DNA of 32,731 nucleotides from a virus: positions 1 through 32,731 of the IMG/VR virus record IMGVR_UViG_3300021247_000285. One strand, given 5' to 3'. A model generated the notes under the pieces. It had not been told where the DNA came from, did no database searches, and saw only the letters and a list, made by a program, of their open reading frames with translations. Made by a program: the position numbers and the translations under genes. Below are positions 5,044 to 32,731 of the stretch, one piece after another (position 1 is the first letter of the stretch; each line of letters opens with the position of its first letter).

Positions 5044-5546
5044 AAGACCAAGTAACATTAGATAGGATAAAATTATTGCATCCTAAGTTAAAAGATGAAG
5101 TTTTAAATATATATGATGAAATAGTAGCTGCACTTAATGGTTCAGCTATTTGTCGTTTTGCATATACTTTAAGAACTTTTGCTGAACAGGATGCATTATA
5201 TGCACAAGGTAGAACAAAGGTAGGTGCTAAGGTTACAAATGCTAAAGGTGGGCAGTCATATCATAATTATGGGTTAGCTATTGATATTGTTTTATTGGTA
5301 GACAAGGATAAAAATGGTAGCTTTGAAACTGCAAGTTGGTCAACCAATGAAGATTTTGATGGGGATAAGACTGCAGATTGGATGGAAATAGTTTCTATAT
5401 TTAAAAGATATGGGTTTGAGGCAGGAATAGATTGGCATTTTAAAGATGCTCCACATTTCCAAAAGACCTTCGGATATTCTGTAAAAGAATTACAAGATTT
5501 ATATAACTCTAAAAAAGTAGATAAAAATAATTATGTTCTTATATAA
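5040..5546 (+). CDS. endolysin, M15 peptidoglycan endopeptidase
   Basis: 168 residues with the M15C (VanY/L-alanyl-D-glutamate peptidase) signature: RTFAEQDALYAQGR near residue 44, SYHNYGLAIDI supplying zinc ligands His75 and Asp82, and DAPHF with His139 as third ligand and Asp136 as likely catalytic base, in the same spacing as T5 endolysin. It would cut peptide stems of murein in the periplasm. No signal peptide is visible, so export through a holin is expected. It overlaps the spanin gene by 4 nt and the homing endonuclease by 14 nt. Confidence 0.88.
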   Translation: MKDQVTLDRIKLLHPKLKDEVLNIYDEIVAALNGSAICRFAYTLRTFAEQDALYAQGRTKVGAKVTNAKGGQSYHNYGLAIDIVLLVDKDKNGSFETASWSTNEDFDGDKTADWMEIVSIFKRYGFEAGIDWHFKDAPHFQKTFGYSVKELQDLYNSKKVDKNNYVLI

Positions 5547-6102
5547 TAGTGGAATTTACTTTATTGCATCTAAAATAGATGGTAAACTATATATTGGTCA
5601 AAGTAAAAAACTGAATAATAGAATTAATGACCATTTTAGAAGGCTTAGAAATAATAAACATCAAAATAGACATTTACAATATGCATATAATTTATATGGG
5701 AAAGATAATTTTTACTATGAAATAATTGAATATTGTGATGAAAATATGTTATCAAGTGCAGAATCTTTTTATATATCTTATTTAAAAACTTATAATGATT
5801 CAATTGGTTATAATTTAAAGGCAGAAATTGGAGAGCATAGCATTCATAGTGAAAATACAATAAAATATATGCGTTCAATAAAACCTTGTAAAATAGTATA
5901 TGCTTTTAATATTAATGGACAATTAATAAAATATTGGGATAGCATTAAATTATGTGCAAGTGAATTGAAAGTAAATACTTGTGATGTAAGAAGAACAATA
6001 TCACAAAAACAAAGACTTTGCAAAGGATATGTTTTAAATGATGCTCCGACTTTTAGACTTAGAGAAAATAAAAGAAAATTAAACTATAAAAATTTATGCT
6101 AA
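5533..6102 (+). CDS. GIY-YIG homing endonuclease with NUMOD1-like tail
   Basis: 189 residues. GIY at 7-9, YIG at 20-22, Arg30, Glu77 and Asn94 match the GIY-YIG catalytic core. Residues about 122-168 (VYAFNINGQLIKYWDS ... RLCKGYVL) resemble the NUMOD1/IENR1 DNA-binding module of homing enzymes. The gene is squeezed between endolysin and exonuclease genes with overlaps of 14 and 7 nt, and looks even more A/T-rich than its neighbours, as expected for a mobile free-standing endonuclease. No intron is evident around it. Its target is likely the same locus in related phages. Confidence 0.85.
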   Translation: MFLYNSGIYFIASKIDGKLYIGQSKKLNNRINDHFRRLRNNKHQNRHLQYAYNLYGKDNFYYEIIEYCDENMLSSAESFYISYLKTYNDSIGYNLKAEIGEHSIHSENTIKYMRSIKPCKIVYAFNINGQLIKYWDSIKLCASELKVNTCDVRRTISQKQRLCKGYVLNDAPTFRLRENKRKLNYKNLC

Positions 6103-8141: not shown

Positions 8142-8687
8142 ATGAAATTAGTAAAAATCCAAACAGAATTAAAAGCACCCAAAAACCAAACAAATGCATT
8201 TGGTAAATATAAATACAGGAGTGCAGAGGACATTGTAGAAGCAGCCAAACCTATACTTTTCAAGTATGATGCTGCCCTATTAATTAGTGATGAAATGGTT
8301 CAGGTAGGTGAAAGAATATATGTAAAAGCTACTGCAACATTGATACTAGATGAAAATAATATTGTATCTGTTCATGGTTGGGCAAGAGAAGAAGAAGTTA
8401 AAAAAGGTATGGATGCTGCACAGATAACAGGTAGTGCTAGTTCATATGCCAGAAAGTATGCTTTAAATGGATTATTCGCCATTGATGATACAAAGGATAG
8501 TGATGCAACCAATGACCATAAAGATGAAGTTGGTGAAGACAAAAGAATGGAATTGATAGTATTATTGGAAAACACAATTTGGGATAGCACTACAAAGGAT
8601 TCTATTGCAAATAAGATTAGTCAATATACTACTAAGGAGCAATACAATAAAGCGTATAAATCTATTACTGAAAATCAAATAAAATAA
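8142..8687 (+). CDS. ERF-family single-strand annealing protein
   Basis: 181 residues. The conserved ERF core is visible: YKYRSAEDI (23-31) near the start, then DAAQITGSASSYARKYAL (91-108) and GLFAIDDTKD (110-119). ERF proteins anneal complementary single strands in phage recombination and genome circularisation, usually with an exonuclease and SSB. The C-terminal 50 residues are a less conserved helical tail. It lies in the replication operon. Confidence 0.88.
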   Translation: MKLVKIQTELKAPKNQTNAFGKYKYRSAEDIVEAAKPILFKYDAALLISDEMVQVGERIYVKATATLILDENNIVSVHGWAREEEVKKGMDAAQITGSASSYARKYALNGLFAIDDTKDSDATNDHKDEVGEDKRMELIVLLENTIWDSTTKDSIANKISQYTTKEQYNKAYKSITENQIK

Positions 8688-9278: not shown

Positions 9279-9707
9279 ATGTCAATACAAAAAGAAATAT
9301 ATGATGCATATAAGATGCAAAAGGATAGCTTTAATTTTCTGCATAAATTAATGACTAAAGAAGGAATCATATTAGATGATATTGCAGTTACAATTACAGA
9401 TAGAACTATCAAGCCAATTAAAGTAGTACAGTTAGTTGAAGAAATATTTAATACTGACATCAAAGCTAAGAATAGAAAACAAAGTACTGTATTTGGTAGA
9501 CAAGCTGCTGCATATCTATTAAGACTTTATACTAGGTTAAGTTTATCTGAAATTGCACCTTTCATTGGTGTTAGTCATCATACGACTACATTATATTCAA
9601 TCAAGAATTGCCAGAATCTAATGGATACTGAAGATTGGTATAAAGAAAAAGTCATGCAGATTTGCACAGAATTAGATGAATATAATTTATATTTGCAATC
9701 TAATTAA
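9279..9707 (+). CDS. DnaA domain IV-like DNA-binding protein
   Basis: 142 residues. Residues about 70-128 resemble the C-terminal DNA-binding domain of DnaA: RQAAAYLLRLYTRLSLSEIA, then FIGVSHHTTTLYSIKN, comparable to the DnaA signature G-x-DHTTVLHA. There is no AAA+ ATPase part, so this is a DnaA-box-binding module alone. The N-terminal 65 residues are helical and unassigned. Lying just before an initiator-like gene with iterons, it may help mark the phage origin or interfere with host DnaA. Confidence 0.72.
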   Translation: MSIQKEIYDAYKMQKDSFNFLHKLMTKEGIILDDIAVTITDRTIKPIKVVQLVEEIFNTDIKAKNRKQSTVFGRQAAAYLLRLYTRLSLSEIAPFIGVSHHTTTLYSIKNCQNLMDTEDWYKEKVMQICTELDEYNLYLQSN

Positions 9708-9744: not shown

Positions 9745-9799
9745 TGGGGGGATGATGAACTGCTAATGCGACTAGCAGGGAATCTGAACCCCATTTTTT
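9745..9799 (+). promoter_or_regulatory. nested hairpin plus T tract just before the initiator gene
   Basis: An outer stem TGGGG (9745-9749) / CCCCA (9789-9793) encloses an inner perfect stem CTGCTA (9760-9765) / TAGCAG (9773-9778) with a 7-nt loop. Six T follow at 9794-9799, and the ATG of the next gene is at 9805. It looks like an intrinsic terminator or attenuator placed in the 5' leader, which would make expression of the initiator conditional. Confidence 0.55.
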
Positions 9800-9804
9800 A
9801 TTTT

Positions 9805-10440
9805 ATGTCAAAAGACCCTGCTTTTTTATTTTATCCCAATGACTATTTAGGTGGTACTATGGGAATGACCTTTGAAGAAAAAGGTGCGTATATTGAACTA
9901 TTGATGCTTCAATTTAATCGAGGTCATATGACCACACATATGATAGGTCAAACAGTAGGTCAACTTTGGGTCAAGATACAGGACAAATTTATAGAAGATA
10001 GTAATGGTATGTGGTATAATGAACGTTTAGATATTGAAAAAGAACGTAGGAAAACATTCACAGAATCTAGGCGCAATAACGTTTTAGGTAAAAATCAACA
10101 TACTAAAAACAAAGAAAAAGAAGTTGGTCATATGACCACACATATGATAGGTCATATGGAAAATGTAAATATAAATGTAAATAATAAAGATTTATTTATA
10201 AATAGTATAGAAGAATATAAAGAACTATTAGGTGAATCGTATAATGAATTTATTGAATATTGGTGTGAACCAAATAAAAATCATAAATTGCGTTATGAAC
10301 TTGAAAAGTTTTTTGATGTTAAACGCAGAATAAATACATGGATTAAAAACAAACTACGTTATGGAAATACAAAAACATTTCAACCAGCTGCCACAAGTCA
10401 ACAAAGAATGGAAAACCTTAAACAATGGATTAATAGTTGA
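9805..10440 (+). CDS. replication initiator-like protein (DUF1376/YdaU N-terminal type)
   Basis: 211 residues from the ATG at 9805. The frame runs upstream to another ATG at 9766, but that lies in a hairpin, and the family consensus starts at MSKDPAFLFYPNDYLGG. The N-terminal 60 residues (FEEKGAYIELLMLQF) match the winged-helix DUF1376 domain of phage initiators. The motif GHMTTHMIG occurs twice (about 38-46 and 106-114), encoded by a 29-bp perfect DNA repeat, so the gene probably contains the origin. The C-terminal part has helices typical of loader or primosome contact. The last 80 nt overlap the next gene. Confidence 0.7.
   Translation: MSKDPAFLFYPNDYLGGTMGMTFEEKGAYIELLMLQFNRGHMTTHMIGQTVGQLWVKIQDKFIEDSNGMWYNERLDIEKERRKTFTESRRNNVLGKNQHTKNKEKEVGHMTTHMIGHMENVNINVNNKDLFINSIEEYKELLGESYNEFIEYWCEPNKNHKLRYELEKFFDVKRRINTWIKNKLRYGNTKTFQPAATSQQRMENLKQWINS
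9922..9974 (+). repeat. iteron array, block 1 (candidate origin)
   Basis: Begins with a perfect 12-bp palindrome GGTCATATGACC (9922-9933). GGTCA half-sites follow at 9946, 9958 and 9969, i.e. spacings of 24, 12 and 11 bp. The first 29 bp (9922-9950) are repeated exactly at 10126-10154. Confidence 0.7.
10126..10158 (+). repeat. iteron array, block 2 (candidate origin)
   Basis: Contains the exact 29-bp copy of block 1 (10126-10154). CATATG recurs at 10129, 10141 and 10153, exactly 12 bp apart. An AT-only-like tract follows immediately, the layout of iterons beside a DNA unwinding element. Confidence 0.7.
10159..10225 (+). other. AT-rich tract beside iterons (candidate unwinding element)
   Basis: Nearly free of G and C, with a short tandem repeat AAATGTAAAT / AAATGTAA at 10161-10180 and a run TTTATTTATAAATAG. 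It is still coding for the initiator, and directly follows iteron block 2. Confidence 0.5.
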
Positions 10441-11107
10441 TAACGAAATAGCTGAAGCATTTAAGGGTAGCAAACTTAATTTGCTTTCAACTATAACTTT
10501 AAAAGAAAATTTAGCTTACATTTTCACTTTGATAGGATTAACAAAATACCCTGAAAAAGAAGAAATGATTGTCATTGAAGATTTCATTAGAACTAGCTAC
10601 CCATTATATACTATTGAAGAATTTAGGATAGCTTTTAAAATGGCAGTACAGGGAAAACTAGATTGCAGTACAGAACACTACGAAAAGTTTAGTCCTAAGT
10701 TTATAGGTCAGGTTATGGCAGCCTACACAAAAAAGGCAATAGAAGTTAGAAAAATGATAAAACCGATTTTAAGCGAAATAGAGACACCCAAATTATCGGA
10801 TGATGACATAGTATCATTTACCCAAAATGAGTGGCTAGAATCGCCTAAAAATGACTTTAACAAGGTTTTTAATGCTGATAAGGTATTCGCAATTTTGCTA
10901 AAGCAAGGGAAGTTAAAATTTGAACCTAGCGAAATGATGAATATAATTAAGCTAGTAAGAGAAGATAACCTATTGAAACTTAATAAGTTATATGGGCAGG
11001 ATGCTAAAGAATTTAGTAAAAGATTAAAAGATGATGATTTTATTGATACACAATGTAAAAAACTAGCTTTAGTAAAATATTTTGAAAATATATCAAATCA
11101 AGTATAA
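10361..11107 (+). CDS. probable replication accessory protein (helicase-loader-like)
   Basis: 248 residues, with no nucleotide-binding motif. The segment YPLYTIEEFRIAFKMAVQGK followed by EHYEKFSPKFIGQVM resembles a conserved helical region in Bacteroidota phage replication proteins found after initiator genes. The position after an initiator recalls the O-P pair of lambda, so helicase loading is the best guess. The start overlaps the initiator gene by 80 nt in another frame; no better in-frame ATG was found. Confidence 0.5.
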   Translation: MEIQKHFNQLPQVNKEWKTLNNGLIVDNEIAEAFKGSKLNLLSTITLKENLAYIFTLIGLTKYPEKEEMIVIEDFIRTSYPLYTIEEFRIAFKMAVQGKLDCSTEHYEKFSPKFIGQVMAAYTKKAIEVRKMIKPILSEIETPKLSDDDIVSFTQNEWLESPKNDFNKVFNADKVFAILLKQGKLKFEPSEMMNIIKLVREDNLLKLNKLYGQDAKEFSKRLKDDDFIDTQCKKLALVKYFENISNQV

Positions 11108-14004: not shown

Positions 14005-14315
14005 TAGATAGACAATTTTTAAAAGAACATTATAATAATTTTGAAACTGCTAAAAGTGGATTTCTAAGAAACTTAGATTTAAATATAATGAAAACCTATG
14101 AACATATTTATAGGAAATATATTGACCATAATTTCATTTTGACAATATGGTGTGGCAACTGCCGGATGGATATGGTTTTAAGATTGTATGCACATTATGA
14201 AAAAGTATTACATCAGGATGAAACAATGATGCAAACACCTGTTAATTTATTTGAACAATCGGAAGTAATTAATATACCAAAAAAGCGTGGTCGCAAACCG
14301 AAAACAAATGGCTAA
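13995..14315 (+). CDS. hypothetical protein with AT-hook-like tail
   Basis: 106 residues. Helical body (YEHIYRKYIDHNFILTIWCGNCRMDM) with a Cys pair, and a C-terminus KKRGRKPK that matches the AT-hook core R-G-R-P-like motif for minor-groove binding of AT-rich DNA. Homologous-looking proteins occur before late genes in Bacteroidota phages. A DNA-binding role is inferred from the tail only. Confidence 0.6.
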   Translation: MELIDRQFLKEHYNNFETAKSGFLRNLDLNIMKTYEHIYRKYIDHNFILTIWCGNCRMDMVLRLYAHYEKVLHQDETMMQTPVNLFEQSEVINIPKKRGRKPKTNG

Positions 14316-14790
14316 TTTTATACATCCAACTGCCATCATTGGTGATAATGTTGAACTAGGTGATAACAATTATATTGGTGCTTATTGCATTATAGGTGAT
14401 AAAGCAGAACATAAAAAACATTGGGATAAGCCAACCGGCAAAGTATACATAGGTGATAACAATATAATAACAGGATTAGTTACAATAGATGCAGGTACTG
14501 AAGTAACTACCTTTATAGGTGATAATTGTTTTATAATGAAACATTCACATATAGGTCATGATTGTACTATACATTCAGGAGTTACCATAAGTTGTGGTGC
14601 AAAAATTGGTGGTCATTCAATTATTGGCAAAGCATCAAACATAGGACTTAATGCAGTTCTTCATCAATTCAGCCATATAAAAGAAGGTTGCATGATTGGA
14701 GCAAGTGCATTTTTCAAAGGTGAATCTGAACCATTTACAAAATATGCAGGTGTACCGGCTAGAAAACTAGGAATAAATAATCCAAAATGA
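14308..14790 (+). CDS. LpxA-like left-handed beta-helix acyltransferase
   Basis: 160 residues from the ATG at 14308; an upstream GTG at 14287 is inside the previous gene and adds no conserved sequence. Repeated hexapeptides (IGDNVELGDN, IGDNNI, IGDNCF) form a left-handed beta helix. HSHIGHDC aligns with the active site of E. coli LpxA (AHIAHDC), so His84 would be the catalytic base. His103 (IGGH) and His119 (LHQF) match two more conserved LpxA histidines. It ends with YAGVPARKLG, usual for sugar acyltransferases, and lacks the C-terminal helices of LpxA (262 residues). It probably acylates a nucleotide sugar or glycan made with the next two genes. Confidence 0.75.
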   Translation: MANFIHPTAIIGDNVELGDNNYIGAYCIIGDKAEHKKHWDKPTGKVYIGDNNIITGLVTIDAGTEVTTFIGDNCFIMKHSHIGHDCTIHSGVTISCGAKIGGHSIIGKASNIGLNAVLHQFSHIKEGCMIGASAFFKGESEPFTKYAGVPARKLGINNPK

Positions 14791-15374
14791 ATGCAGTAAT
14801 ATTTTTAAACTATCAAAATGATAGTGTTAAGACATTAGGTCAAAACCTTATTAATGCCGGAATAGATATTGAACAATTAATAATTGTAAAAGAAAAAGGT
14901 ATATCTAATGCTATTAATGTAGGCTTAAATAAAATAGACTTTAGTAATATTCAATATGTTACAATACTAGCAAATGATATTTTCGAACCTGATAATTGGT
15001 TAGCAATAAGAAATGAATTTTTAAAAGATGAAAGCATTGGTATATGTTCAATTCCTTTAGATGGGTTTTCAGGTGATTCATTAGATTTGATTGGTAATTT
15101 TACAATAACAAAAGAAGCAATTAAAAGAGTTGGTGCATTTAATCAAGAGTTAGACCCATATGGTGCAATAGATTTAGATTACTGCACAAGAGTAAGGGCA
15201 GCAGGATTACATACTAAATTTGTACCATCTACAAAAGCTATACATTTAGAACAAAATGGTAGTGATAAATACGGATACAATAAAATGGACTTAGTTAAAA
15301 AAACATGGGATTTGCATAATCAAAACGTATCAGCTTATACGGATAACACTAAAGCATATTATATACCATTATGA
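14787..15374 (+). CDS. family 2-like glycosyltransferase (GT-A)
   Basis: 195 residues, short for GT2. It starts with a Rossmann-like strand (MNAVIFLNYQND), then YVTILANDIFEPDNW, where Asn63-Asp64 occupies the place of the DxD metal motif. DLDYCTRVRAAGL (Asp129, Asp131) with FVPSTKAIHLEQ is the usual GT2 acceptor-side end. It would transfer a sugar from a nucleotide donor in the cytoplasm. It overlaps its neighbours by 4 nt, so it is probably co-translated with the acyltransferase. Confidence 0.75.
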   Translation: MNAVIFLNYQNDSVKTLGQNLINAGIDIEQLIIVKEKGISNAINVGLNKIDFSNIQYVTILANDIFEPDNWLAIRNEFLKDESIGICSIPLDGFSGDSLDLIGNFTITKEAIKRVGAFNQELDPYGAIDLDYCTRVRAAGLHTKFVPSTKAIHLEQNGSDKYGYNKMDLVKKTWDLHNQNVSAYTDNTKAYYIPL

Positions 15375-16366
15375 GAATACTAGCAATTACAAGTAAATTT
15401 AGTGGGGTTGGATATCATAGAATAATGATGCCATTGGTTAATATGAAAAAAGATTATTGCTTAATAACAGATACAATCAATGAATTAGTATTTGACAATA
15501 ATTATGATATTGTAATTTTCAATCGTTTCTTAGCTTCAACAGATGCAAAGTTATTGGTTAAAATGAAGTTGAAATATAACTTTAAATTGGTAGTAGATAA
15601 TGATGACTATTGGCATTTACCCCCATCCCATGTTTTATATCAAAGGTATCAGGATAGCAATATATCAGAAATCATAACTGAATATATGAAGGTGGCAGAC
15701 CTTTGCACCTGCACCCATGAAAGACTAGCTGAAGAAATATATAAGTTTAATCCAAATGTAGAAATATTACCTAATGCACTACCATATGGCAGGGAGCAAT
15801 TTCAAGATAATAAAATAGAATCTGATATGGTTAGATTGTTTTGGTCAGGTTCAGGTACACATTCTGCTGATATGGATATATTACGCAATCCCATAAAGAA
15901 GATTAATTTCCCTGTTAAAACAATTATAGCAGGTTATAATCTAGCAGAAAAACATATATGGGATAGAATGATAGCAGTATTTACAAATGGCTTAAAATTA
16001 AATCCTACTATTTACGATTATTCAGAAGTAACAAAATACATGGGTGCTTATGCTGATTCAGATATTAGCGTTATCCCATTGGTAGATAATAAGTTCAATT
16101 CAATGAAATCTAATTTAAAGGTATTAGAAACTGCATCTAAAAGAAATCCTGCCATTGTTAGCAATGTGCATCCCTACAAGGATATGCCATTATGTTATGT
16201 AAATAATCAGAAAGATTGGTATTATTGGATTAAACTATTAACCCATGATGATGCAGCTAGGATTGAATATGGGCAAAAGCTATTTGAATACTGCAATGAA
16301 CATTACAACTTAGACACTATAAATAATAAAAGATTTGCTATTTATAATAAATTGATAGGCAAATGA
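15371..16366 (+). CDS. family 4-like glycosyltransferase (GT-B)
   Basis: 331 residues. N-terminal strand MRILAITSKFSGVGYHRI, a middle domain linker with FWSGSGTHSADMDIL, and a C-terminal donor-binding region (ISVIPLVDNKFNSMKSN and LKVLETASKRNPAIVS) as in GT4/GT1 enzymes. Full two-domain length. With the LpxA-like and GT2-like genes it forms a three-gene glycan module. Possible products are virion glycosylation or host surface change; the sequence does not say which. Confidence 0.75.
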   Translation: MRILAITSKFSGVGYHRIMMPLVNMKKDYCLITDTINELVFDNNYDIVIFNRFLASTDAKLLVKMKLKYNFKLVVDNDDYWHLPPSHVLYQRYQDSNISEIITEYMKVADLCTCTHERLAEEIYKFNPNVEILPNALPYGREQFQDNKIESDMVRLFWSGSGTHSADMDILRNPIKKINFPVKTIIAGYNLAEKHIWDRMIAVFTNGLKLNPTIYDYSEVTKYMGAYADSDISVIPLVDNKFNSMKSNLKVLETASKRNPAIVSNVHPYKDMPLCYVNNQKDWYYWIKLLTHDDAARIEYGQKLFEYCNEHYNLDTINNKRFAIYNKLIGK

Positions 16367-16890
16367 TGACTTTTACAGAACTAGATTCAAAGGGCAGATT
16401 AAGGTCTAAAGTTAAATTTTTATGTGAAAAATGTAATTGTGAAACAATATACAGATTAGATGAAGTAAAGAGAAGGGGTAAATTATGTAAAAAATGTAAA
16501 TTAATAGAAAATAGCATTAACGAATTTTCATATAAGAATTTAGAATTAATTTGTGCTAATGTATTAAAATCTAGGATGAATAAAAGATACATTAAAAGAG
16601 GTCTTAATTGTACTTTGACAGGCAATGAAATATTAGAATTAGTTAAATCTAAATGCCATTATTGTGGTGATGAATCTAGTAATATGTTTTTATATAAGCA
16701 ACCTAATTTTCAATATAAGTTTTATTATAATGGTATTGATAGAATAGATAGTTCAAAAGGATATATAAAAGGCAATGTTTTAAGTTGCTGCAAAACTTGT
16801 AATATTTCAAAAATGGATATGGATTATAATAAATTCATTGAGCATATTAATAAAATATATATAAACTTAATAGAAAATGCCAATATATAA
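16363..16890 (+). CDS. HNH homing endonuclease with zinc-finger N-terminus
   Basis: 175 residues. The N-terminal pairs Cys21/Cys24 and Cys42/Cys45 form a zinc finger. CHYCG (98-102), GIDRIDSSKGY (Asp126 region) and NVLSCCKTCNISK form an HNH core with its own zinc site, as in phage HNH homing enzymes. It sits between the glycosyltransferase and the HAD fusion with overlaps of 4 and 14 nt and is unrelated to either, which suggests insertion by homing. Confidence 0.8.
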   Translation: MMTFTELDSKGRLRSKVKFLCEKCNCETIYRLDEVKRRGKLCKKCKLIENSINEFSYKNLELICANVLKSRMNKRYIKRGLNCTLTGNEILELVKSKCHYCGDESSNMFLYKQPNFQYKFYYNGIDRIDSSKGYIKGNVLSCCKTCNISKMDMDYNKFIEHINKIYINLIENANI

Positions 16891-18523: not shown

Positions 18524-18895
18524 ATGGGTAACCCAAAAGCAATAGAAGGGCAAGGATTTCACACTAACCCTGAAAGAATAAATAAAGAAGGCAGACCTAG
18601 AAAATATGTCAGCCTACTAAAAGAACAAGGCTATAAACTATCTGAAATTAATGATAGTATACAGGCTTTAATGTCTATGGATGAAGAAGAATTAAAATCA
18701 GTTAGCACAAATGACAAAGCTACTGTATTAGAAAAAACTATTGCTAAGGCTATTTTAAAGTCAATGAGTAATGGTAGCTTATATTCATTAGATACTTTGT
18801 TGACTAGGGTATACGGCAAACCTAAAGAGCAAATGGATATTAAATCAGATAACAAAATAGAAGTTATCTTTGTAGATGGTAAAACCATTTTATAA
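18524..18895 (+). CDS. probable terminase small subunit
   Basis: 123 residues. The N-terminal GFHTNPERINKEGRPRKYVS resembles the start of DUF5681-like and small-terminase-like proteins. The helical middle (LSEINDSIQALMSMDEEEL) and SLYSLDTLLTRVYGKPKEQ follow. It ends one base into the ATG of the large terminase (TAATG), the classic small-large order. It would recognise the packaging site. Confidence 0.65.
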   Translation: MGNPKAIEGQGFHTNPERINKEGRPRKYVSLLKEQGYKLSEINDSIQALMSMDEEELKSVSTNDKATVLEKTIAKAILKSMSNGSLYSLDTLLTRVYGKPKEQMDIKSDNKIEVIFVDGKTIL

Positions 18896-20046
18896 TGCAA
18901 ATATTCCTACCCAATCCACACGCTAACCAACAGAAGATACTAGAATGTGATAAACGTTTTAGAGTGGTGATGTGTGGTCGTAGATTTGGTAAGTCAGAAC
19001 TATCACAGATACTTTCAGTCACATATGCCGTTAAAGGTCTATCTGTGGCTTATATAACCCCTACTTATGGATTGGCTAAGGTTTTCTTCAGTAAGCTAAC
19101 CGAATCCCTAGAACTGCCTAAAAACAAGTCTGACCTAAAAATAGACTTTCCCAATGGTGGGCAGGTAGAATTTTTTACAGGTGAAAGATTGGATAACCTA
19201 AGAGGTAGAAAGTTCCATTTGGTTATTATAGATGAAGCATCATTTATCCCTGACCTAGAATCAGGATGGCAAAATAGTATTAGACCTACTTTAACCGATT
19301 ACAAAGGCAAGGCAATATTCCTTTCAACACCTAGAGGGAAAAATTATTTCTATAGTTTATTTATGAAGGCAGGGGAAAATGATTGGGCATCATTCAAGTT
19401 TACTAGCTATGACAATCCTTTCATTGACCCAATGGAAATAGATGAAGCTAGGATGCAATTACCCAATGTGGTATTTGAGCAGGAGTACATGGCTAACCCA
19501 TCAGAGAATAGTGCTAACCCATTTGGTAATAAGTTCATACAGGATTGTGTAAAGCCAATTAGCAATCAACCAATAGTAGCATTTGGGATTGACCTTGCTA
19601 AGTCAGTAGACCACACCGTAATTATAGGTCTTGATAATGGTGGCAATGTGGCTTATTTTGACAGGTATCAAATGGATTGGCATAATACTAAGGAGAATAT
19701 TAAAAGGTTACCCAGATGCCCTATATTAGTAGATAGTACAGGTGTAGGTGACCCTATCCTAGAAGACCTGCAAAGAGAAGGGATAGCCATTGAAGGATTG
19801 AAATTTACAAGTTCAAGCAAGCAACAATTAATGGAGGGGTTAGCTACTGCCATTCAACAGGGCAGGATAGGATTCCCTGAAGGAGCAATCACAAATGAAT
19901 TGCAAGTCTTTGAATATCAGTTTACTGCAAATGGTGTTAAGTATTCTGCACCATCAGGATTCCATGATGACTGCGTTATGGCATTGGCTTTGGCTTGGAA
20001 TAACTTCAGCATAAAAAGGGGTAATGGCAGGTATTCTTTTGTATAA
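18895..20046 (+). CDS. terL: terminase large subunit
   Basis: 383 residues with both required activities. ATPase: Walker A CGRRFGKS (27-34), Walker B LVIIDEA (Asp113, Glu114), motif III STPRG (144-148). RuvC-like nuclease: Asp233 in GIDLA, Asp280 in VDSTGVGD, and Asp358-Asp359 near the end. It pumps DNA into the prohead and cuts concatemers. It is shorter than many TerL (about 420-550). The first operator box of the next control region begins right after its stop codon. Confidence 0.93.
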   Translation: MQIFLPNPHANQQKILECDKRFRVVMCGRRFGKSELSQILSVTYAVKGLSVAYITPTYGLAKVFFSKLTESLELPKNKSDLKIDFPNGGQVEFFTGERLDNLRGRKFHLVIIDEASFIPDLESGWQNSIRPTLTDYKGKAIFLSTPRGKNYFYSLFMKAGENDWASFKFTSYDNPFIDPMEIDEARMQLPNVVFEQEYMANPSENSANPFGNKFIQDCVKPISNQPIVAFGIDLAKSVDHTVIIGLDNGGNVAYFDRYQMDWHNTKENIKRLPRCPILVDSTGVGDPILEDLQREGIAIEGLKFTSSSKQQLMEGLATAIQQGRIGFPEGAITNELQVFEYQFTANGVKYSAPSGFHDDCVMALALAWNNFSIKRGNGRYSFV

Positions 20047-30853: not shown

Positions 30854-31227
30854 TGATACATTTAACTAAAGGACAAACTAATACTATTATTTTGACATTA
30901 ACTGAAAAGCAGTTATTGATTAACCCTAACTATTTATTTGTCTTTACAAATAGAAGTAGCAATAATATTATCAAATTCGTAGTTTTAAACGCATCTGATT
31001 TAAGTTTATATAAGGATAGATACAATGAATTTAGCATTGTTACTAATACTAACTTTAGTTCTGCATTAGAAGGGCAATATACCTATGAAGTGTACGAACA
31101 AGCAAGTAGTTCAAACACAAATATAACAGGCTTAAATAAGCTAGAAACAGGCATTATGTGGCTTTCAGGTTCTACTATGACTTATAACCAATATACAACA
31201 ACTGACACTTATACAATTAGACAATGA
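30853..31227 (+). CDS. conserved virion protein
   Basis: 124 residues from the ATG at 30853; a TTG one codon upstream is less likely. IHLTKGQTNTIILTLTEKQ, YLFVFTNRSS, YNEFSI, EGQYTYEVYEQ: a beta-rich protein found, by my recollection, in structural operons of Bacteroidota phages. It precedes the portal gene with a 4-nt overlap. Exact place in the virion unknown. Confidence 0.6.
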   Translation: MIHLTKGQTNTIILTLTEKQLLINPNYLFVFTNRSSNNIIKFVVLNASDLSLYKDRYNEFSIVTNTNFSSALEGQYTYEVYEQASSSNTNITGLNKLETGIMWLSGSTMTYNQYTTTDTYTIRQ

Positions 31228-32731
31228 TAGATTTAAGAGTATTAACATTCGCTGAAGCTAGGCAGCCTGAATTCAAAGAGAAGAAAGGCATAGATGGCGG
31301 ATATATTAAATATGGGGAAAACAATGATTATCCTGAATACATAGTAGACTTATATAATAAGTCTTCTAAGCATAGTGCAATCATTAAAAGCAAGGTGCAT
31401 TATATTACAGGTAATGGCTGGTCAGGTCAGCCTGATGCACAAGCATTTATTGACAAAGCTAATAGAGTTGAATCATTAAACGATTTAACTAGAAAGGTAT
31501 CATTAGATGTTGAAATATTTGGTGGTGCTTATTTAGAAGTTATTTGGGATATGGCAGGTAATCTTGCTGAATTATGGCATTGTGATTATACTAAAATAAG
31601 GACTAACAAAGACAATACACAATATTGGTATAAAGAAGATTGGAAAGATAATAAGGTTAAGCCTGATGTTATAGCTGCATTTAATCCTAAGCAGCCAACA
31701 GGAAAACAAATTCTGTACATAAAAGAGTACAGACCTAATATTGGTATCTATGGATTGCCTAGTTATTTTGCTGCATTAAATTATATTGAATCGGATATTG
31801 AAGTTTCTAAGCATATTTTAGGAAATGCACAGACAGGGTTTTCTGCTAGTAAACTTATTACTTTGCCAAATGGTGAACCTAATGATGAAGAAAAACGCAA
31901 TGTAGATAATAGATTAAGAAAAACATATAGCGGTGCAGATGGTAAAAAATATATGATTGCATTTGTTAATGACATATCTAGGAAGCCTGTCGTAGATGAT
32001 TTAGGCACAAGTGATTTAACAAAAGAAGATTTTAGCAGAGTAGATGAATTAATTCAGACTAATATATTTAGTGGGCATCAGGTTACTACCCCATCAATTA
32101 TGGGTATTGCTGAAGCAGGTAAGCTAGGCAGTAGAACTGAAATGCGTGATGGCTATGAAATATTTAAAAACACTTATGTAAATGCAAAACAAATGCATTT
32201 AGAAAGTGTATTCAATATGTTAGCTAAATTAAAAGGTGTTGAAAGTGAAATAAAGATTATACCTACAGAACCTATTGGAATAGAATTTAGCGAACAAACT
32301 ATTGTTTCAGTAGCACCAAAAGAATGGGTATTAGAAAAGATTGGTATTGATTCTACTAAATATACACCTGCAGAAGTTACTGCACCTGCTGAAGCGTTAT
32401 CGGTTAATGAGCATATCAAAGGCTTAAAAGGTCGTGAGTGGCAAAATATGCAGCGTATTATTCGTGAGTTTAACAAAGGAAAAATTAATAGGGAACAAGC
32501 TGCTGCAATGCTTAAAACAGGATATGCATTAAGTGATGAAGAAGTTAATACATGGTTAGGTTCAGATGAAATGGATGCTGAATTTGCAGCACAAGATTTT
32601 AGTGTGTTCTATGAATTCGGTGAAAATAAAGAAGGTTATAATATCTGGAAATCTAAAAAGCGTTTTAGTGATGAAGCAGATTTTCATATGTTTGCTGATG
32701 TTACACAATTAGAATCAGATATACTTGACCA
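31224..32731 (+). CDS. portal protein (partial, runs off the window)
   Basis: An open frame of 502 codons from the ATG at 31224 to the window end with no stop. YGENNDYPEYIVDLYNKSSKH, HYITGNGWSG, VSLDVEIFGGAYLEVIWD and the QVTTPSIMGI region are typical of phage portal proteins of the SPP1/HK97 kind. It would form the dodecameric head vertex through which DNA is packaged by the terminase. The last 60 residues (FSVFYEFGENKEGYNIWKSK) look like an extra C-terminal domain. Confidence 0.78.
   Translation, partial: MIDLRVLTFAEARQPEFKEKKGIDGGYIKYGENNDYPEYIVDLYNKSSKHSAIIKSKVHYITGNGWSGQPDAQAFIDKANRVESLNDLTRKVSLDVEIFGGAYLEVIWDMAGNLAELWHCDYTKIRTNKDNTQYWYKEDWKDNKVKPDVIAAFNPKQPTGKQILYIKEYRPNIGIYGLPSYFAALNYIESDIEVSKHILGNAQTGFSASKLITLPNGEPNDEEKRNVDNRLRKTYSGADGKKYMIAFVNDISRKPVVDDLGTSDLTKEDFSRVDELIQTNIFSGHQVTTPSIMGIAEAGKLGSRTEMRDGYEIFKNTYVNAKQMHLESVFNMLAKLKGVESEIKIIPTEPIGIEFSEQTIVSVAPKEWVLEKIGIDSTKYTPAEVTAPAEALSVNEHIKGLKGREWQNMQRIIREFNKGKINREQAAAMLKTGYALSDEEVNTWLGSDEMDAEFAAQDFSVFYEFGENKEGYNIWKSKKRFSDEADFHMFADVTQLESDILD

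Follow-up and report, generated by a model that had tools for sequence, protein, structure and literature searches.

The window, by which we mean the whole stretch of DNA that was analyzed, is a 32,731-base virus record whose main genes all lie on the + strand. A portal-like frame (31224–32731) runs past its end and no direct terminal repeat of 12–200 bp was found at the window ends; the genome in this record is therefore probably incomplete. The features that concern us here are the following.

9805–10440, + strand: putative DUF1376-like initiator gene, 211 aa, with PHROG, Pfam and fold matches
9835–10086, + strand: winged-helix-like helical domain with a short hairpin (residues 11–94, AlphaFold2), proposed iteron-binding domain
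9922–9973, + strand: upstream iteron cluster, with GGTCATATGACC at 9922–9933, CATATG at 9937–9942 and in-phase putative GGTCA half-sites at 9946–9950, 9958–9962 and 9969–9973
10126–10158, + strand: downstream (main) iteron cluster, in the linker, with CATATG at 10129, 10141 and 10153 at 12-bp spacing
10159–10182, + strand: four A-rich 6-bp tandem units (GAAAAT GTAAAT ATAAAT GTAAAT), adjoining the last iteron
10159–10225: AT-rich tract of 86.6% A+T and low stability, proposed DNA unwinding element
10183–10437, + strand: C-terminal helical part in the model (residues 127–210), with a putative partner-recruiting role
10361–11107, + strand: overlapping downstream gene for an all-helical protein of 248 aa
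9279–9707, + strand: upstream gene, encoding a small protein that has a DnaA DNA-binding domain (Bac_DnaA_C, 1.2e-12)
8142–8687, + strand: ERF single-strand annealing protein, replication/recombination module
18895–20046: terminase large subunit

Elsewhere in the window, three successive frames (14287–16366) resemble a hexapeptide acyltransferase and two glycosyltransferases, which is unusual cargo at such a phage size, and frames at 5533–6102 and 16363–16890 resemble GIY-YIG and HNH homing endonucleases.

An alternative in-frame ATG for the gene at 9805–10440 lies at 9766; the relatives keep the start at MSKDPAF/MAKDPAF. The encoded protein matched PHROG families named primosomal protein (6e-8). 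In a Pfam scan with E values up to 0.1, its N-terminal part matched DUF1376 (PF07120; 24.1 bits, E = 4.7e-5) and this model alone; lambda O models and plasmid Rep domains gave no match. Because the score lies under the curated DUF1376 cut-off of 30.1 bits, we refer to the protein as DUF1376-like.

The AlphaFold2 model of the protein was confident at residues 11–94 and over much of 131–180, with a pLDDT of about 94–98 over residues 11–80, and fell below 50 at residues 105–124, a stretch encoded by the main array together with the beginning of the A-rich tract. Residues 40–57, encoded by the upstream iteron cluster, overlap helix 44–61, which in the model could be the recognition helix. Foldseek searches of BFVD returned annotated DUF1376 and phage replication proteins (best E = 1e-8, for an unnamed protein), with DUF1376-named proteins from E = 7e-6 at a probability of 1.00, and kinship with DUF1376 was found both by fold and by sequence. 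A fold search of the PDB gave no match at E below 0.001; weak winged-helix matches there were to ORC2 (the best, Z = 5.4), the DnaD N-domain (Z = 3.9) and MarR-type proteins, and the winged-helix assignment, which draws on the model and these weak matches, is tentative. Sequence searches of solved structures with both alignments returned nothing useful.

The initial annotation of this DNA described a 29-bp perfect repeat, which we confirmed at 9922–9950 and 10126–10154, together with CATATG or GGTCA recurring at 12-bp steps, which were likewise present. Within the gene, CATATG occurs five times (9925, 9937, 10129, 10141 and 10153) and GGTCA at 9922, 9946, 9958, 9969, 10126 and 10150. If GGTCATATGACC is the full palindromic site, then the GGTCA copies at 9946, 9958 and 9969 would be half-sites; they extend the register of the two preceding CATATG motifs, giving steps of 12, 12, 12 and 11 bp. 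The two clusters are about 190 bp apart, in the DNA that codes for the winged-helix-like domain and the linker. It had also been argued that conserved synonymous positions make this more than a protein repeat. From the window alone this did not follow: with the window protein and its codon usage held, a synonymous null gave a mean of 4.4 CATATG compared with the 5 seen (P = 0.53), because His-Met is nearly always written CATATG here, and the null has no power on this gene. It is the relatives, described below, that prove the argument.

The AT-rich tract at 10159–10225, which had also been pointed out, stands at the 99.4th percentile of the window for A+T, and the DNA after the array has 86% A+T compared with a gene mean of 67%. 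Only about 0.07% of the window's 60-mers have a lower stability than the one that begins at 10159, and the 60-mers beginning within the tract rank in the lowest 0.1% by stability. The array is thus adjoined by the least stable DNA of its neighborhood. The 45 bp past the array had an A+T content above the whole-gene value in 74 of 75 relatives. GC skew was positive throughout the window, with no switch marked.

Relatives were collected by a protein search of IMG/VR, which gave 80 loci and, from these, 75 distinct homologous genes. CATATG arrays at 11–12 bp were present in all of them (75/75), with 226 CATATG pairs inside the genes, 200 at 12 bp and 26 at 11 bp (counts that are not independent, the sequences being related), and the CATATG pair of the upstream cluster was retained. 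With the same dependence among sequences, the codon preceding Met was CAT for every His (338/338), compared with 142 CAT and 78 CAC elsewhere; Gly before HM was written GGT in 134 of 140 cases (elsewhere 401/897), and the half-site glycines used GGT in 104 of 115 (other glycines, 298/783). Among six close relatives at 86–87% DNA identity, which are likewise not independent of one another, synonymous change at codons for the same amino acid was seen in 1 of 79 inside the array, compared with 220 of 906 elsewhere in the gene. This is the opposite of a kept protein motif with diverged synonymous codons, the outcome that the initial annotation had named as counting against its reading.

In distant relatives the protein motif HM changed to SYD, SYE, PYE, GIC or TYD, with CATATG and its 11–12-bp spacing kept. 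Across 59 non-redundant genes, CATATG was found in codon frames 0, 1 and 2 in 187, 44 and 41 cases, and a further 12 copies were non-coding. The linker of L011–L013, SYDPSYDESYVKHM, carries CATATG three times in frame 1 and once in frame 0; at L035, L046 and others, SYE or PYE stands ahead of HM, an 11-bp step shifting the frame; and the very different proteins of L088, L098 and L143 (MASSWFPMFGRDFL...) read CATATG as GIC repeats in frame 2. At L085, L096, L104, L128 and L093, the stop codon of a short DUF1376-only gene comes after the domain and is followed by the array, here non-coding, again with AT-rich DNA adjoining. As CATATG occurs in all frames and in non-coding copies, the signal is therefore one of the DNA, tied to DUF1376-like genes, and we take reading frame, as seen in these sequences, to be the decisive evidence for a DNA-level signal.

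L051 (3001–3873), a close relative whose ERF protein is 100% identical, has about 80 extra linker residues before the iterons, which resemble a GIY-YIG/T5orf172-type domain, and the array beyond them is intact. At L083 (5742–6644), four CATATG at 11-bp spacing run across all three frames of a gene whose protein, a different candidate initiator, has no detectable DUF1376-like match; a second initiator family may share the CATATG iteron.

IMG/VR was also scanned for the DNA pattern by itself, three CATATG spaced at 11–12 bp. Among the matches listed, 69 of 80 readable loci had the pattern in, or no more than 120 bp after, a DUF1376-like ORF, compared with 0 of 80 readable loci among the matches listed for GTATAC, a control of the same composition. 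A scan of bacterial genomes for three CATATG returned mostly other repeats, and only L223 and L260 held the array inside DUF1376-like genes. At L090 (11505–11532) and L150 (296–323), triplets of CATATG spaced at 11 bp precede A-rich repeats, with no recognizable initiator gene around them; they may be orphan origins, decayed genes or breaks in the assembly. In that bacterial scan, genomes of Rhodobacteraceae (Rhodovulum, Actibacterium, Phycocomes and Marinosulfonomonas; L204, L230, L241, L250 and others) had several three-fold CATATG arrays on different contigs, most of them with 11-bp spacing.

The gene after the initiator in relatives encodes a DnaB helicase (L025, L034, L060, L064), a DnaB N-domain protein (L014) or, at L125, a member of a helicase-loader family; at L110 a primase-type gene lies downstream. 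The window's counterpart to this downstream helicase or loader gene is the all-helical 248-aa protein, which has no assigned function and whose structure gave no usable match in a fold search.

In lambda O/ori-lambda and the origins of Stx phages, iterons lie in the middle of the initiator gene with an AT-rich tract beside them, extra iterons just lengthen the protein, and a helicase-side gene comes next (PMC7466680). The DUF1376-like genes have in common with these the iterons in the initiator gene, the adjoining AT-rich tract, the longer protein with extra iterons and, in relatives of the window's gene, a helicase-side gene that follows. They are unlike lambda O in that the DUF1376-like protein has no lambda O model match, the spacing is 11–12 bp and the palindromic core has 6 bp, the DNA that encodes the DNA-binding-like domain contains a second cluster, and in some relatives the array comes after the stop codon. 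The initial comparison with lambda O/ori thus stands for the plan of the locus and not for the protein, and its proposal of iterons with an easily melted element in an initiator gene is supported by the comparative evidence of the relatives' arrays and the AT-rich tract. Iteron plasmids such as F, whose initiator is RepE, have winged-helix initiators, helically phased iterons and adjoining AT-rich repeats, with the origin beside the rep gene and not within it. The window is like them in its winged-helix-like initiator, helically phased iterons and AT-rich repeats alongside, and unlike them in that the putative origin is inside the gene and no plasmid Rep domain was matched.

We conclude that the region is very probably a phage replication origin inside its own initiator gene, in the manner of lambda O; the encoded protein would bind the array, and DNA melting and the start of replication would take place there. 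The protein is predicted to begin with a winged-helix-like domain, to continue as a disordered linker and to end in a helical part, and would bind the palindromic CATATG iterons (in their extended form GGTCATATGACC), probably as dimers. Since the iterons repeat every 11–12 bp, all sites would lie on about the same side of the helix, and the filled array would give a compact nucleoprotein structure. This structure would melt the tract of A-rich hexamers that comes next, at 10159–10225, and would recruit a helicase or its loader.

The array could be the origin and yet be bound by the phage DnaA-like protein (9279–9707), the HTH_39 protein or a host protein, with the DUF1376-like protein only recruiting the helicase. 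The DnaA_C-domain gene lies directly upstream in the window and has a relative in 61 of the loci L002–L161, both genes are present in Rhizobium phage RHph_TM3_3_3 and Cellulophaga phage phi19:1, and CATATG is retained despite strong divergence of the N-domain. However, many array-bearing relatives had no DnaA_C gene within the flanks examined, and the sequence of the iterons varies by DUF1376 lineage, which fits recognition by a co-evolving protein. A search for DnaA boxes over the entire window gave three relaxed matches, a number below that expected by chance, and none within 6 kb. As the array persists without a DnaA_C gene in the flanks examined and without a DnaA box nearby, the DUF1376-like protein is the likeliest binder, and we consider a different one improbable. 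An origin of the DnaA-box type was rejected, the box cluster that it would have near the AT-rich tract being absent. The DUF1376 gene and the small DnaA-domain gene share a genome in RHph_TM3_3_3, where they are adjacent, and in phi19:1, where they are apart (loci L323 and L557), as they do in the window; the pair is possibly a two-protein initiation system.

A regulatory role for the array, as an operator through which the protein controls transcription of its own gene while replication starts elsewhere, appears very unlikely. Palindromic sites and a winged-helix-like protein would suit a repressor, and the second cluster is inside the coding region, but 417 kb of flanks of the relatives held no CATATG pairs at 10–13 bp and therefore no such array at neighboring promoters, and AT-rich DNA of minimal stability after the array, together with the replication module, is expected of an origin and not of an operator. 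We give very little credence to a partition (parS-like) or packaging (pac) site in place of the origin: phased short-site arrays occur in partition systems too, but the gene to which this one is tied is DUF1376-like and is not that of the terminase, helicase genes come next in relatives and the AT-rich tract adjoins. Lastly, the array might be a protein repeat (GHMTTHMIG), or a small duplication of recent date, without function at the DNA level. The five CATATG predicted by the window protein (P = 0.53) and a step of 12 bp, or four codons, might speak for this, but it is refuted by the three frames, 11-bp spacing, non-coding copies and synonymous conservation of the relatives.

The origin reading was extended to the DUF1376 family with 33 non-redundant DUF1376-type genes, picked by protein only, from bacterial genomes, viral contigs (other DUF1376 queries), E. 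coli ydaU and phage records. For each gene, self-similarity was measured over the 150 bp that follow the domain, with flanking controls (n = 530). Repeats at lag 11 were detected in 19 of 33 genes compared with 28 of 530 controls (P = 3e-14), at lag 7 in 16 genes compared with 16 controls (P = 1e-13), and at lag 12 in 14 genes compared with 53 controls; lags 10 and 13 were flat. Lags 11 and 7 also exceeded a null in which synonymous codons are resampled while the protein stays the same, and in 8 of the 33 genes this method detected neither a lag 11 nor a lag 12 repeat. Further DUF1376 members were reached with a profile built from the relatives of the window protein, and Pfam DUF1376 gave no match in 14 control genomes. 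The repeats were lineage-specific, as follows.

L326/L327: CATATG
E. coli Rac ydaU: ATGTTCAAACA and its inverse, directly past the domain
L330: GCAATGCG-like
L324: GGTAATACC-like
L441: GAAATCAGAT-like
Cellulophaga phage phi19:1, 11049–11090 of the record: AAACCGAAA type, 11-bp

The 6–7-bp repeats match stretches such as AACCATAAACCAATAACC and, in the window, GAAAATGTAAATATAAATGTAAAT.

An active origin, oriJ, has been reported for the E. coli Rac prophage (PMC3945230). Rac ydaU-ydaV is like the window in having a DUF1376 gene, phased repeats after the domain and a gene for a putative ATP-binding protein next, and unlike it in the sequence of the iterons. In the cultured Cellulophaga phage phi19:1, gp031 appears, from its sequence, to be the DUF1376 protein that the fold comparison had listed; its gene resembles that of the window in carrying 11-bp repeats, in a phage with an ERF and a DnaA-like gene, and differs in that the iterons are not CATATG and HNH and primase/helicase genes follow.

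It is likely, though with less assurance than for the window itself, that DUF1376 is a widespread phage initiator family with every gene a self-contained replicon, and oriJ would in that case have E. coli Rac ydaU as its core. Such a replicon would comprise a winged-helix-like domain, followed by lineage-specific iterons phased at one helical turn and by A-rich tandem repeats of 6 or 7 bp, these elements usually lying within the linker and sometimes just past the stop codon. Origins within initiator genes are already known. No precedent was found for DUF1376 genes as origin-carrying units, whose iteron code is readable and lineage-specific and which come with a natural three-frame control, in the literature searched, which included few subscription papers. 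Judged by titles and abstracts, DUF1376 received passing mentions in papers on other subjects, and among papers containing both "CATATG" and "iteron" none was on this topic by its title.

These findings suggest a likely function for a domain that is named as one of unknown function, and the replication start of many uncultured phages may be readable from sequence alone. They would also provide a rare natural case of a DNA-level signal that crosses a protein linker in all three reading frames. As the iteron code of each lineage can be read, the co-evolution of initiator and site would be open to direct study.
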